The notes under the pieces are model-generated. The model searched no databases. It had not been told where the DNA came from and saw nothing but the letters and a program-made list of their open reading frames with translations. A stretch of 11,463 bases of DNA, from positions 1 to 11,463 of the forward strand of contig JAPLVI010000160.1 of NCBI GenBank assembly GCA_026397195.1, in the 5' to 3' direction. The stretch's first letter is position 1; every line of letters starts with the position of its first letter. This DNA is from Candidatus Berkelbacteria bacterium (lineage in GTDB: Bacteria; Patescibacteriota; UBA1384; JAHJRZ01). The translations under genes were made by a program, and so were the position numbers. Of this stretch, positions 4,811 through 10,037 are shown in pieces.

Positions 4811-4833
4811 AATCAAAGAAGACTCAACATTAA

Positions 4834-4966
4834 TGAACTACCACCGGCTAAAGCCGGTGGTATCCTCGGCCTGACGCCTCGGCGAGTTCGTTACTCCTCC
4901 GCTCACTTCGTTCGCTACGGGGTGGCTTATATCTTCCAGCCCAAAGCTGGGGTTTTACGCCAGTAG
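4834..4966 (-). mobile_element. Transposase-less IS200/IS605-like element (solo ends)
   Basis: This is a non-coding, GC-rich island in AT-rich surroundings, bounded by two hairpins. At the low-coordinate end, ACCACCGGC-TAAA-GCCGGTGGT (4840-4861) has a 9-10 bp perfect stem. On the minus strand this hairpin is followed by AGTTCATT, like the right end of IS200/IS605 elements. At the other end, CCAGC-CCAAA-GCTGG (4936-4950) could be the left-end hairpin. Between them lies G/C-rich sequence with small potential stems. No tnpA or tnpB frame is present. It is best explained as a non-autonomous derivative or remnant. The family assignment rests on end structure only, and the exact borders are uncertain. 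Confidence 0.5.
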
Positions 4967-5026
4967 TAATAAGAGAAAAAAAAATTTACAAAATATTTCA
5001 GACTAAAGCGGTTTTTAAACAAAAAA

Positions 5027-5716: not shown

Positions 5717-7837
5717 TTACTCTAAGTGGGTCTCTTTTTCAAATTGTTGCAGTTTATTTCGAAGCATAGGATAGGATATAAGCCGTGGATCGGTTTGAAT
5801 TAGCTTCTCGGCTTCGGTTTTTGCCTCTTTAATTAATCTATAGTCAAAAAGTGAAGCGAAACGTAAATTGGCGATTCCGTGTTGTCGTTCGCCATATATT
5901 TCACCCGGGCCACGTAATTTAAGATCAGCTTCAGCGATTTTAAAGCCATTAGAGGTTTCAGCAATGACTTTTAATCTTGCTTTTGTTTCTTCATGAGCTG
6001 ATTCGGTAAAAAGGAAGCAATAAGATTTATATTTATCGCGACCGACTCTTCCTCGGAATTGGTGAAGTTGAGAAAGACCAAATCTTTCTGCTCCCTCAAT
6101 CATAATAACCGTCGCATTAGGTATATCAACACCAACCTCAATTACTGAAGTAGAAACTAAAATATCGAGTTTTTTATCTTTAAACTGATTCATTATTTTT
6201 TCTTTCTCATTAGATCTCATTCTGCCATGTAAAAGACCAATTTTAAGTTCAGGGAAGATAGAATTTTTAAGCTTCTCATATTCTTCAATGGCTGCTTTTC
6301 TGCTATCAAAATCAAAGGTGAAATGAACACTATCCTTTTTTCTTTCTTTTTTCTCAATTAAGGGACAAATGACAAATATTTGTCTGCCTTTTTCTATTTC
6401 ATTTTTGATAAAATCGTAAGCTTTGCCTCTTTTAGTGGGAGGAACGAGATATGTTTTTATTTCCTTTCGATCTTTTGGATATTCATCGAGGATTGAGATG
6501 TCAAGATCACCATACAGTGCCAAGGAAAGTGTTCTGGGTATGGGTGTTGCCGTCATAGAGAGGAGGTGTGGAGTCTCTCCTTTTAAATTATTTTTTTTAA
6601 TTTGCGCTCTTTGTTTTACGCCAAAGCGGTGTTGTTCGTCTATGATTGCCAGAGCCAAATCTTTAAATTTGATACCTTTTTGGATTAAAGCATGGGTACC
6701 AATAATAATGTCAGAGGTTAGATATTTATTTTTAGGCATTATATTATTTTTTGAAGAAAGATGATAGCTATTTGTCAGAAGCTCGATTTCAAGATCATAA
6801 TTTTGAAAGAATTTTACAAAATTTTGATAATGTTGATAGGCAAGAACCTCGGTTGGCGCCATAATGGCTGTCTGTTTACCATTGAGATAAACGCAAAGAG
6901 CGGCGATGGCCGCGACAATAGTCTTTCCAGACCCCACATCGCCGTTTAGGAGACGATTCATCGGGCGGGTGTTATCTAGATCCTTTATTATCTCCCAGGC
7001 TGAACGTCTCTGGGCATCAGTTAATTTAAAAGGTAAATTTTTAACAAACGAAGTAACCTCTTTCTCCTTAAAACGCATTCTTCTTGCACTAAGCGAGCGG
7101 AGTTTGTTTTTTAATATTTCAGTCCTTAGAGCAATAATAAATAATTCATCAAATGCCAGACGATGGATGGCGGCCTTTAAGGATTGATGAAAATCAGGGA
7201 AATGGATTTGACGGATAGCCTCATCAAAATCGATCAAATCAAGCGAGTCCTTGATTTCAAGGGGTAATGGGTCTTTAAATTTTGAAGAAAGTTTTAAAAG
7301 AGGTTTAATCTTTGAGCGCAACCATTTCGAGGAAATGCCTCTTGTTTCAGGATAGATAGGGACAATTCTACCCAAATGAGGCGAAAGAGGATTTGTTGAT
7401 TTTTCATAGACTGGGTTAGAAAGATATCTTCCCAAATATGGTTTAAAATCCACCTTACCAGCCAGAACTAAAGTGTCTCCGATCTTAAAAAAGCGTGTCA
7501 AAAAGGGTTGATTAAAAAAGATAACCTTCAAAGTTGAAGTATCATCTGAGATTATCGCTTCGGTAATGTTCATTCTTCTATTTTTGGAGCGTCGTGAAGA
7601 AATGCTCAATAGTTTCCCTTTAAAGGTAGCAGATTCACCAGGTCTTGATTCAACAATAGGTTTGATTGAGCTTAAATCCTCATATCTCGAGGGAAAGTGT
7701 AAAAGTAAATCCTTTATTGTTCTTATTCCGAGTTTTCTTAATCTTAAACTCAAAACACGGCCGACATTATAAAGACGATCAACCCCCATATTTAGGTTAA
7801 GGTCATAATTTTGATTTTTTTTAGATATTGTTCTCAT
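5717..7837 (-). CDS. recG: ATP-dependent DNA helicase RecG
   Basis: The 706-residue protein has full RecG architecture. An N-terminal wedge/OB-fold region (about 1-260) binds branched DNA, and two superfamily-2 helicase domains follow. Visible motifs are Walker A GDVGSGKT at 299-306, motif Ia APTEVLA, Walker B DEQH at 400-403 followed by RFGV, motif III SMTATPIPRTL at 427-437, LLHGRM at 535-540, STSVIEVGVD, and motif VI QFRGRVGR at 593-600. The C-terminal FGLSQLHQ and LKLRGPGEIYGERQHG segments are typical of RecG/Mfd. It remodels stalled forks and Holliday junctions. Its ATG overlaps the mnmA stop in an ATGA arrangement (7834-7837), so its translation is probably coupled to the end of the mnmA frame. 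The start at 7837 gives a slightly extended N-terminus; M17 is an alternative. Confidence 0.97.
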   Translation of the reverse strand: MRTISKKNQNYDLNLNMGVDRLYNVGRVLSLRLRKLGIRTIKDLLLHFPSRYEDLSSIKPIVESRPGESATFKGKLLSISSRRSKNRRMNITEAIISDDTSTLKVIFFNQPFLTRFFKIGDTLVLAGKVDFKPYLGRYLSNPVYEKSTNPLSPHLGRIVPIYPETRGISSKWLRSKIKPLLKLSSKFKDPLPLEIKDSLDLIDFDEAIRQIHFPDFHQSLKAAIHRLAFDELFIIALRTEILKNKLRSLSARRMRFKEKEVTSFVKNLPFKLTDAQRRSAWEIIKDLDNTRPMNRLLNGDVGSGKTIVAAIAALCVYLNGKQTAIMAPTEVLAYQHYQNFVKFFQNYDLEIELLTNSYHLSSKNNIMPKNKYLTSDIIIGTHALIQKGIKFKDLALAIIDEQHRFGVKQRAQIKKNNLKGETPHLLSMTATPIPRTLSLALYGDLDISILDEYPKDRKEIKTYLVPPTKRGKAYDFIKNEIEKGRQIFVICPLIEKKERKKDSVHFTFDFDSRKAAIEEYEKLKNSIFPELKIGLLHGRMRSNEKEKIMNQFKDKKLDILVSTSVIEVGVDIPNATVIMIEGAERFGLSQLHQFRGRVGRDKYKSYCFLFTESAHEETKARLKVIAETSNGFKIAEADLKLRGPGEIYGERQHGIANLRFASLFDYRLIKEAKTEAEKLIQTDPRLISYPMLRNKLQQFEKETHLE

Positions 7838-8323
7838 ATTTCAATAAAACCGCCACCAAGCACCTTATCCTGTTGATAAAAGACACAGGATTGTCCGGGA
7901 GTGATAGCTCTTTCTGGATTTTTAAAAATGACTGAAATTTTTTTATTGGGAATTGTCTGAATACCTCGAGGCTTGCTTCGAGGATGAAGGCCAATGGCAC
8001 AGCCTCGACACAGGCTGCGCCGAGACTGTGTCATAGATGCAGCGGAGCTGCCACTTTGCCAACGAACCCGCCCTGATGCCCCGCCGCAGGCGGGATCGGA
8101 TTCATTATTTAGATAGGAGATAGAACAGGGTTTAGGTGTATGTTGATAACGTATTTGAGCTAAGGTCTTTCTTTCACCTACAAAGTGGCTAAGAGAAGAA
8201 TCTAACCAATTAATTTGGGATATTGTTAGACCTTTTTGAAAGACATCCTTATTTTCTCCAACAACCAGAATATTTTTATCTGGGATAATTTTTAAAACAT
8301 AGAGAGGAGGAATATCAATTTTT
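7834..8323 (-). pseudogene. mnmA: mnmA, C-terminal part, frame-shifted and carrying a GC-rich insertion
   Basis: This frame holds the C-terminal beta-barrel part of MnmA, in the +1 frame relative to the N-terminal part. IDIPPLYVLKIIPDKNILVV, then LTISQINWL, AQIRYQHTPKP, VIFKNPERAITPGQ and VFYQQDKVLGGGFIE all match the family in order. The junction lies at an A7 run (8319-8325, T7 on the plus strand). Removing one A joins GQRAPEK to IDIPPLYVL. The frame is open upstream to 8406, but those codons are a shadow of the N-terminal part. Between SYLNN and KKISV there are 53 extra residues rich in Ser, Arg, Gly and Cys, encoded by the repeat insertion at 7943-8109. The insertion keeps the frame and has no stop. 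The part ends in an ATGA overlap with recG. Confidence 0.85.
7943..8109 (-). repeat. GC-rich palindromic element inserted in frame within mnmA
   Basis: This sharply GC-rich block lies in an AT-rich gene. Hairpins in plus-strand coordinates are: 7964-7983 (CCTCGAGG.../...CTTCGAGG); 7996-8021 (10-bp arms, GGCACAGCCT against AGGCTGCGCC, whose single mismatch becomes a G-U pair in the mRNA); a competing GACACAG/CTGTGTC (8007-8013 and 8026-8032); GCAGC-GGA-GCTGC (8039-8051); and CCCGCC-GCA-GGCGGG (8080-8094). TTATT flanks it on both sides (7943-7947 and 8105-8109), a possible 5-bp target duplication, although such AT-rich repeats arise easily by chance. The repeat-to-repeat distance is 162 bases, a multiple of three. 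In layout it resembles Rickettsia palindromic elements, without claimed homology. Confidence 0.7.
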
Positions 8324-9064
8324 TTCTGGCGCTCTTTGGCCAATCGTATAGAAGGAAAGCCCCTTATGAGTTCCGATAATATTATTATTTTTATCGACCA
8401 CATCACCTGGTTCTAAAAGCTTTTTAGCATATTTTGAAAGAAAATGTGAATTGGATTTACCGACAAAACATAATCCTTGTGAATCTTTTTTGTTAAAGGT
8501 TATTAATTGATGTTTTTTTGCTATTTTCCTGACTGCATTTTTGGTCAATTTACCTAATGGAAAGATAATTGAAGAAAGAGAAGAAGCAGGAATCCGCCAA
8601 AGAAAATATGACTGATCCTTATTTTTGTCAATTCCTCGATGTAATTCGAATTTATCTCCCTTTTTTATAATTCTAGCGTAATGACCAGTGGCAATTTTTG
8701 TCGCTCCAAGATTATGTGCGATTTTTAAAAGTTTACCAAACTTGATTTCACGATTACAAACAATGCAGGGATTAGGAGTTATACCCTTTTCATATCCTTG
8801 AATGAAATATTCGACGACCTTCTTTCTAAAGAGTTCTTTAAAATTTAGAGAATATAATTTGATATTTAATTTATTGGCTATAGTTCGAGCAAACCCATAT
8901 GATTCAATTGAGCAGCATTTATTGCTTGAATTCCCTTCATTTTCACTCCAAAAATTCATAAATATGCCAATAACATCATAGCCTTTTTGTTTTAAAATTG
9001 ATGCAGCAACACTTGAATCAACCCCCCCTGAAATAGCACAAAGGATTTTATTAGAATTTGGCAT
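8315..9064 (-). CDS. mnmA: tRNA 2-thiouridine(34) synthase MnmA, N-terminal and catalytic part (frameshifted)
   Basis: MnmA uses ATP and a persulfide relayed from cysteine desulfurase to thiolate U34 of tRNA-Gln, tRNA-Glu and tRNA-Lys. This 249-residue part carries the whole catalytic region: the PP-loop SGGVDS (12-17), NPCIVCNREIKFG with C103 at the position of E. coli C102, the DQSYFLW motif (150-156) and SQGLCFVGK with the second catalytic cysteine C199. It ends early after FYTIGQRAPEKN at TGA 8315, inside the domain where the protein should continue; the remainder lies in another frame. The frame is open upstream to 9136, but that overlaps the CAP domain gene, so MPNSNKIL at 9064 is the likely start, 7 bases after that gene's stop. 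The break could be real, an assembly error, or bypassed by polymerase slippage on A7. Confidence 0.88.
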   Translation of the reverse strand: MPNSNKILCAISGGVDSSVAASILKQKGYDVIGIFMNFWSENEGNSSNKCCSIESYGFARTIANKLNIKLYSLNFKELFRKKVVEYFIQGYEKGITPNPCIVCNREIKFGKLLKIAHNLGATKIATGHYARIIKKGDKFELHRGIDKNKDQSYFLWRIPASSLSSIIFPLGKLTKNAVRKIAKKHQLITFNKKDSQGLCFVGKSNSHFLSKYAKKLLEPGDVVDKNNNIIGTHKGLSFYTIGQRAPEKN

Positions 9065-9071
9065 AGATCTA

Positions 9072-10037
9072 TTAATCAGTAAATTCCTGAGTAAACATTC
9101 TCCCATAGATTCCAGCATCAACAATACCAATTCCAACCTTATTAAAGTTTGGGTTTAGAATGTTTTCACGGTGTCCTTCACTATCCATTAGGCCTTGCTC
9201 AGCCTTACTAACATCAGGTGCGAGAGCTAGATTTTCGCCAGCGTAGACATAGATAATCCCGGCATTTCTTAGACGATCAAATGGGCTTAGGCCCTCAGGG
9301 GTATAATGGGAAAAGTATCCTCTTTCAAACATATCTTTTGAATGTTCTCTCGCAAGGTCACGTAGATGATCATCCATTTTTACTTCAGATATATCCCTTG
9401 CTCTTCTTTCTTGATTAATCAAGGAAAGCATTTCATTTTCGGAAAGATCATCAATTTTAAGGTTTTGGGTACGATAGTTTAGGGCAACAATTTTATCACT
9501 CTGAGGTGGTAGGGTAAAGAAATTAACTAAATCCTCAATACCTTTTCCAAATACAGCCTCATAGGGTTTTTGCAAGATTGAACTTGAACCAAGAAAAGAC
9601 TTGGCGATATGGGTTTTTTCAATCGCTCCCTTAAATCGTTGTGACTCTCTAATTGGTATTGAAGTTAGAAAGATTAATACTAAAAGGACAATTATAACTG
9701 CCTTGAAGAATGCGGGCAGTATACCAAAAATTTTATTGGCAGGCGCCTCCTTTATTTTTGGAGGAATAGGACGGTAAGCAAAAAACAAACCGATTGAGTA
9801 GATAATATCAGTCATAAGCCAAATAAGAAGAAAGGCAACAATCTTAGATAGACTTAGAGGAAGAGGGAAGTTTGAAATGAGAAAAGAAGAAACTGGGTTA
9901 TTAAGAATAAAGGCAGTATAAAGAGCAAGAATTGCGCCTAAAAGTTCAAAAAAATTTTTGATAAATCCATTACGATAGCCATCAATTAAATAAAAGACAA
10001 AAATTAAAATAATAATAATATCAATGAGATAACTCAC
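9072..10037 (-). CDS. CvpA-like membrane domain fused to a CAP/SCP domain
   Basis: This is a 321-residue two-domain protein. Residues 1-130 contain four hydrophobic segments (about 4-19, 27-45, 64-87 and 105-126). They follow the CvpA pattern: IDIIIILIFVFYLIDGYRNGF, FFELLGAILALY, and a conserved short loop before TM4. A linker (130-195) leads to a CAP domain at 197-321. This has LSLINQERRARDI, H232 in LAREHSKDM, GYFSHYTPEG, E268 in GENLA, and H289 in SEGHRENILNPNFNKVGIG. These are the conserved CAP-cavity residues, so the fold looks intact. The CAP domain should face outside, tethered by the membrane part; substrate and role are unknown. The start is GTG at 10037 with an AGAGG site 7 bases upstream (10045-10049). 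It overlaps the glycosyltransferase end by 17 bases. Confidence 0.88.
   Translation of the reverse strand: MSYLIDIIIILIFVFYLIDGYRNGFIKNFFELLGAILALYTAFILNNPVSSFLISNFPLPLSLSKIVAFLLIWLMTDIIYSIGLFFAYRPIPPKIKEAPANKIFGILPAFFKAVIIVLLVLIFLTSIPIRESQRFKGAIEKTHIAKSFLGSSSILQKPYEAVFGKGIEDLVNFFTLPPQSDKIVALNYRTQNLKIDDLSENEMLSLINQERRARDISEVKMDDHLRDLAREHSKDMFERGYFSHYTPEGLSPFDRLRNAGIIYVYAGENLALAPDVSKAEQGLMDSEGHRENILNPNFNKVGIGIVDAGIYGRMFTQEFTD

Follow-up and report, generated by a model that had tools for sequence, protein, structure and literature searches.

The GC-rich block inside the mnmA gene of this Candidatus Berkelbacteria contig is probably a copy of a non-autonomous mobile element that is dispersed in Patescibacteria and would move as a single DNA strand with a Y1 transposase supplied in trans; its antisense copies of 3n length would survive as peptide inserts. 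Our estimate for this joint reading is roughly 0.65. Mobility combined with tolerance in frame is close to certain, and if that much is granted the Y1 mechanism is likely. The window (the whole stretch analysed, 11,463 nucleotides) is contig C175 of the source genome (G000), an assembly of 842,208 bases in 183 contigs that is 79.5% complete.

The block in mnmA

GC content rises to 0.51-0.54 in two 160-base windows centred on the block, compared with 0.27-0.42 in the flanking mnmA windows, and several inverted repeats lie within it, confirming the original prediction of a GC-rich hairpin block. The minus-strand frame of the mnmA 3′ part runs open across the block, also as predicted. Comparison (tblastn) with the MnmA protein of a second species of the genus (G001) leaves a gap of 53 residues at the insert, the size expected, which corresponds to a net insertion of 159 nt. 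The DNA at the empty site in G001 is TTTTATTTTG and holds TTTAT; mnmA is the one gene for which target bases were set against an empty site in the DNA, the two proteins being about 73% identical. That the insert residues form a conserved native loop of MnmA can be dismissed for practical purposes: the empty site refutes it, the G001 protein being without those residues, and related sequence occurs at 33 other places in G000.

TTATT does stand on both sides of the block (7943-7947 and 8105-8109) with a period of 162 nt, as had been pointed out. As the footprint of an insertion it fails, since in other copies of the element the right flank does not repeat the left, which rules out TTATT as a target duplication; the net insertion of 159 nt relative to G001 instead places the boundaries at TTTAT and at the two ends of the element that follows it (Table 1).

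The window copy is composite, consisting of a 120-nt element and a 39-nt mini-element. CCAAT and AGATGC, contiguous in other copies, here bracket the 39-nt piece, whose single other match in the G000 search is a solo copy (L017) that comes after TTTAT and also ends in TCAT. It appears that a second, 39-nt element, seemingly obeying the same rule, landed inside the first.

The premise of an intact mnmA did not hold. The frame breaks directly behind the TIGQR motif (T[IL]GQR is present in 19 of 28 loci of the class scanned), some 240 nt upstream of the insert, which reflects either a decaying gene or an assembly error, and this frameshift makes the window copy the weakest of seven genic copies as evidence for translation in a working protein. 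An accidental in-frame state, with the copy lying in the dead DNA of a decaying or misassembled gene, would fit the frame change and the fact that no other mnmA was found in the 79.5%-complete assembly. Six other genic copies nevertheless lie in open frames with no such break in the stretches read (to the contig end for glutamate dehydrogenase); the explanation could apply to the window copy but does not extend to the family, and is highly improbable.

Elsewhere in the window, an intergenic block on the minus strand (4833-4968), read by eye, has the same grammar, with CTTAT at its left and a right end of the form GAAC...GGATACC-hairpin-GGTAGTTCAT; related right ends occur in G009, G016, and G025. 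The only known RNA families matched in the window at gathering scores were three tRNAs.

Table 1. Features of the mnmA region and of the element copy within it
Feature	Position	Strand	Remarks
TTTAT, left flank; presumed target and left cleavage site	7942..7946	+	xTxAT here in nearly all copies; TTTAT also in G001 mnmA empty site
Complete element copy, TGG...TTCAT, 159 nt = 53 codons antisense in mnmA	7947..8105	+	
Hairpin 1 (left end): stem GTCT/AGGC, internal loop GAATA/ATGA, CCTCGAGG-type apical stem	7955..7991	+	Family structure; position read off window
Nested mini-element, 39 nt = 13 codons, GGCACAG...GTGTCAT, inserted after CCAAT	7996..8034	+	
Middle hairpin GCAGC-GGA-GCTGC; 63-nt insert in its loop in 8 other copies	8039..8051	+	
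Hairpin 3 (right end): closing stem GAACCCG...CGGATTC, CCCCGCC-type apical stem, then terminal AT	8064..8103	+	Family structure; position read off window
mnmA 3′ part: C-terminal barrel, with in-frame insert	7834..8406	-	
mnmA 5′ part: PP-loop domain and start of middle domain	8315..9136	-	
mnmA frame change, ~29 nt fewer than G001	8330..8361	-	tblastn with G001 MnmA

Copies in the genome and their hairpins

A BLAST search of G000 with positions 7935-8115 gave 61 local matches (E <= 10), among which many copies appear twice, once for each half, and the best non-self match has E 1.2e-25; the block's repetition in this genome is not chance. Stretches around the matches were taken at 33 places, four of which (L038-L041) hold weak matches only, and one further copy (L061) was added. 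The resulting catalogue lists 34 places in G000, window copy included, and one in G001.

The common form is 123 nt after TTTAT, or 41 codons, and is laid out as TTTAT, then TGG...GCCTGAATACC-hairpin-GGATGAAGGC...GCAGCGGAGCTGC...GAACCCGCCCTGATACC-hairpin-GGTCGGGTTCAT; the right end is TTYAT in most copies. Five copies are without the first hairpin (L017, L025 at 5078, L026, L034, and L036), eight carry an identical, hairpin-rich insert of 63 nt in the middle loop (L010, L014, L024, L025, L030, L031, L035, and L037), only a short piece is left of one (L022, 275-326), and a contig end truncates another (L023, 1-108). Several copies in another genome, G160, have a different insert in the same middle loop. 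A further variant (L023, L029, L031, L033, and L061) has ACTTAGAAACGATCTCCGCCC in place of ACTTTGCCAACGAACCCGCCC, spoiling part of the right closing stem, which looks like an exchange between subfamilies.

Secondary structure was analyzed on the strand that reads from TTTAT to TTCAT, with 18 of the 35 copies; the window copy, L032, all eight copies bearing the 63-nt insert, five truncated ones, and two fragments were set aside. A structure of 33 pairs in six helices accounts for these sequences, with 92.9% of cells paired. The compensatory stem changes that the insertion hypothesis led one to look for are present: for 21 of the 33 pairs at least one copy has both partners changed, and double-change cells number 60, compared with 19.4 in shuffled data (none of 500 shuffles was as high). 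The weakest covariation measure, "further pair types," gave 39 versus 34.8, with 6 of 500 shuffles as high. Pairing falls to 30%-46% when partners are slid, a control that flatters the structure because it was drawn from these same sequences. In hairpin 1 the GAATA/ATGA internal loop is nearly constant and the stem beneath it alternates between GCCT/AGGC and GGTTC/GAACC. The consensus is one of separate hairpins, one near each end on one strand; the two ends are not paired together, and there is no terminal inverted repeat.

The original prediction also took a single G-U pair as a sign of selection on the mRNA. The stem in question is most likely the arm pair 7996-8005/8012-8021, inside the nested 39-nt piece, and the wider count does not bear the idea out: on the plus strand of the 18 other copies there are 24 G-U and 13 A-C cells (p ~0.1), counts that, if anything, favour the strand opposite to the coding strand.

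Copies inside protein genes

Six copies in G000 lie in open frames: those in mnmA (window), miaB (L012), tsaD (L023), uvrD/pcrA (L016), the glutamate dehydrogenase gene (gdh, L019, which reaches the end of its contig), and an amidohydrolase-like gene (L013, whose Pfam match starts only after the insert). A seventh, in G001, lies in the topA open frame. The seven share an antisense orientation and a single reading register, and the length of each is divisible by three (159, 123, 123, 123, 120, 117, and 123 nt after TTTAT). Among the other G000 copies, with the contig-end copy set aside, 10 of 27 are 3n long (Fisher p = 0.007), a contrast that is biased because "in a gene" was judged by open frame. 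Pfam searches of 20 ORFs flanking 14 of these 27 non-genic copies (on both sides for six) revealed no single gene split by a copy; three of the 20 ORFs have no family, and the other 13 copies were judged by ORF positions alone.

The orientation bias has a partial explanation in the element itself. Of the 27 non-genic copies, 17 are open in the common antisense register and nine in a second one, and among all 35 copies 11, mostly truncated or variant, have an open sense frame; these counts indicate that stop codons account for much, not all, of the bias.

If the insert were removed from the mRNA in the manner of an IStron or intron, its frame would be irrelevant. An element structured on one strand and host genes that are usually important would suit such removal, yet all seven genic copies are open and 3n long although 17 of the 27 others are not 3n; moreover, the genic copies are antisense, so that the mRNA carries the complement, and no intron family was matched in the window. 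We give this possibility hardly any weight.

Two further copies seem to have altered the end of a coding region: one (L034:1340-1597) seems to give hypC a new C-terminal tail in the second register, and the other (L010:971-1762) a C-terminal tail to a methyltransferase-like ORF, the stop lying inside the element. A second TsaD homologue in G000 (contig C29:1073-2125), 46%-50% identical to the insert-bearing TsaD, is a paralogue or a contaminant; in view of it, the insert-bearing protein may not be the sole TsaD in this genome.

Insert-bearing genes were compared with their orthologues for mnmA, tsaD, miaB, and topA. The TsaD and MiaB open frames of G001 are without the insert (359 and 366 residues, versus 400 and 413 in G000), as are those of G008 and G009, and the MiaB of G010 has a different insert in the same loop. 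Conversely, the TopA of G000 has a shorter native loop where G001 TopA holds the element. With filled and empty sites in both directions, the insertions post-date the split of the two species and took place in both. The central proposal of the original prediction, a palindromic insertion in frame like those of Rickettsia palindromic elements (RPEs), is supported by further copies (34 catalogued in G000), by genic lengths divisible by three in 7/7 cases in the genus, by an empty site in a close relative (G001 mnmA), and by compensatory changes; the idea was largely right.

Movement, spread, and relation to known repeats

In the mechanism we propose, a single DNA strand would be excised and inserted by a Y1 (HUH) transposase of the IS200/IS605 type acting in trans. 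The enzyme would bind hairpin 1 at the left end and hairpin 3 at the right end; it would cut at TTTAT, also the target, on the left and at TTCAT on the right. Insertion would occur 3′ of xTxAT without target duplication, so that a gene would gain exactly the length of the element. The antisense reading would be a polar open frame, and because of it a copy that is 3n long and comes to lie antisense in a loop that tolerates it could survive as a peptide insert; others would be lost or kept intergenic.

Two observations make a Y1 transposase in trans our preferred mechanism: the right ends are similar to those of some resident IS200-type transposons, and the printed flanks of the copies show no target duplication. 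Among 11 IS200-type tnpA loci examined, five (L103, L104, L105, L131, and L187) have a right end of the form [GC]ATACC-hairpin-GG... followed by TTCAT, TTGAT, or ATCAT, which the right end of the element, GATACC-hairpin-GGTCGGGTTCAT, resembles; the other six do not have it. At the left, the IS200 elements do not look like hairpin 1, and no parent element with both ends matching was found among the 11 loci. A covariance model of the element matched two of 47 Y1 loci, one of which (L138) has palindromes of its own, and in G158 a weak match (E 8.8e-4) adjoins a tnpA with such a right end. The Y1 domain (PF01797) was found in nine of 12 element carriers; it had no match in the 79.5%-complete G000 or in the 100%-complete carriers G274 and G108.

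The absence of a Y1 gene from these three genomes, together with the strong secondary structure and reverse transcriptases in 10 of the 12 carriers, would also suit an element that is mobile and tolerated in frame but moved otherwise, examples being reverse transcription of a structured RNA and a transposase of another class that has been lost or goes unrecognized. We consider such a mover unlikely, at perhaps the odds of a minority view: carriers G283 and G269 have Y1 genes and no reverse transcriptase, PF07282 is unmatched in all 12 carriers, and the right end resembles that of 5/11 IS200-type loci.

Three other candidates were rejected. A TnpB-type guide-RNA scaffold has no partner at the level of PF07282, matched in 0/12 carriers, although this is one domain model that a divergent TnpB could escape. 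The RAYT enzymes of G001 are poor candidates as mobilisers, since its three RAYT-like Y1 genes have other palindromes and no match to the element nearby, and a reverse transcriptase is not a factor common to all carriers (10/12 only). The RAYT-like genes at L133 and L134 (G001 contigs C27 and C1) are in themselves an instance of such genes with their own flanking palindromes in a Patescibacterium. Reverse-transcriptase domains were seen in carriers G000, G001, G009, G160, G249, G213, G274, G108, G222, and G202; their lengths might suit diversity-generating retroelements.

BLAST with the common form matched five of 41 genomes, G000 included, three of them (G009, G016, and G025) in short pieces only. 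The covariance model extended the range to 21 of 286 genomes of the phylum at E <= 0.01, again counting G000 and with a few matches over one hairpin only; 12 candidates were scored per genome, so copy numbers are lower bounds, and G001 is not among the matches listed. G160, of another family, has at least 11 copies. Five further in-frame antisense copies occur in G003, G009, G269, and G222: in the rel gene of G003 (after the synthetase domain and before TGS), in a UvrD-PDDEXK gene of the same genome, in an rmlC-like gene of G009, and, in G269 and G222, in ORFs without a Pfam family; two of the five use the other target register (ATA-AA). An exact-pattern scan of named genomes yielded seven stretches, of which the covariance model recognized one (L228) as a real element, scored two (L222 and L226) at E 0.3, and found nothing at E <= 1 in the remaining four; viral contigs held no exact pattern. 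On palindromic in-frame repeats or IS200 in Patescibacteria/CPR nothing relevant was found in the open-licence literature, which is weak evidence of absence.

RPEs, as outlined in the available text, are palindromic repeats of about 105-150 bp, dispersed between genes and, in frame, within many unrelated conserved genes (PMC2229807, PMC10969869); a 12-bp terminal inverted repeat is listed for them and the target duplication is entered as "?" (PMC2229807), and the same process has been suggested as possible in other prokaryotes (PMC10969869). The present element is likewise a short palindromic repeat in frame in many unrelated genes (seven copies in the genus and five elsewhere). Its ends, unlike those of RPEs as described in these excerpts, are not inverted repeats, and no duplication is present in the printed flanks; the two were compared by description only.

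The ends-only derivatives of IS200/IS605 elements (PATE) are, in the portions of the source at hand, short, bear end hairpins without terminal inverted repeats or target duplication, insert 3′ of a fixed sequence, and are mobilised in trans (PMC7290912). The element shares with them a hairpin near each end on one strand and the lack of terminal inverted repeats; its right end is like that of some resident IS200-type elements, left ends being different, and the undoubled printed flanks, with xTxAT on the left and TTYAT on the right in most copies, would agree with what these extracts report for the IS200/IS605 group (PMC7290912, PMC2817692). It differs in having a middle hairpin and subfamilies, and the passages available describe PATE without in-frame coding insertions.

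REPs are dispersed GC-rich palindromes with a GT(A/G)G head 5′ of the palindrome, arranged in inverted pairs and tied to Y1 RAYT enzymes, according to the sections available (PMC2817692). Dispersal and GC-rich palindromes are common to REP/BIME and the element, but its consensus has no GT(A/G)G head, its hairpins are unequal and in one orientation, and the RAYT-like loci of G001 have no model match. The lack of inverted-repeat ends and of a GTAG-type head leads us to file it under neither RPE nor REP. Unlike a MITE of a DDE transposon it shows neither terminal inverted repeats nor target site duplication, and ERIC, YPAL/RU-2, RU-3, and the archaeal palindromic repeats (MITEs with open frames), several of which have inverted repeats and/or target duplications and all of which belong to other hosts, are set apart by description.

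In its behaviour the element is like an RPE, in its appearance like an ends-only IS200-type element. Selfish DNA in frame inside proteins is the striking claim made for Rickettsia, and the system described here, in another phylum, is apparently independent of it. It offers sites with and without the insert, a structure that can be measured, and a plausible class of transposase, and it makes testable how such elements enter genes without breaking them and whether the inserts stay inert or become useful. For annotators, odd inserts of 40-50 residues in Patescibacterial TsaD, MiaB, TopA, MnmA, UvrD, and RelA may be mobile DNA. More tentatively, and at somewhat less than even odds, Patescibacteria may harbour a phylum-wide superfamily of Y1-type single-strand mini-transposons that duplication-free insertion, a length of 41 codons, and an open antisense frame would together make recurrent suppliers of new peptide segments to essential proteins. 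If true, RPE-like insertion would have a further, independent case, one whose way of moving can be identified and which could serve as a model for the spread of RPEs.
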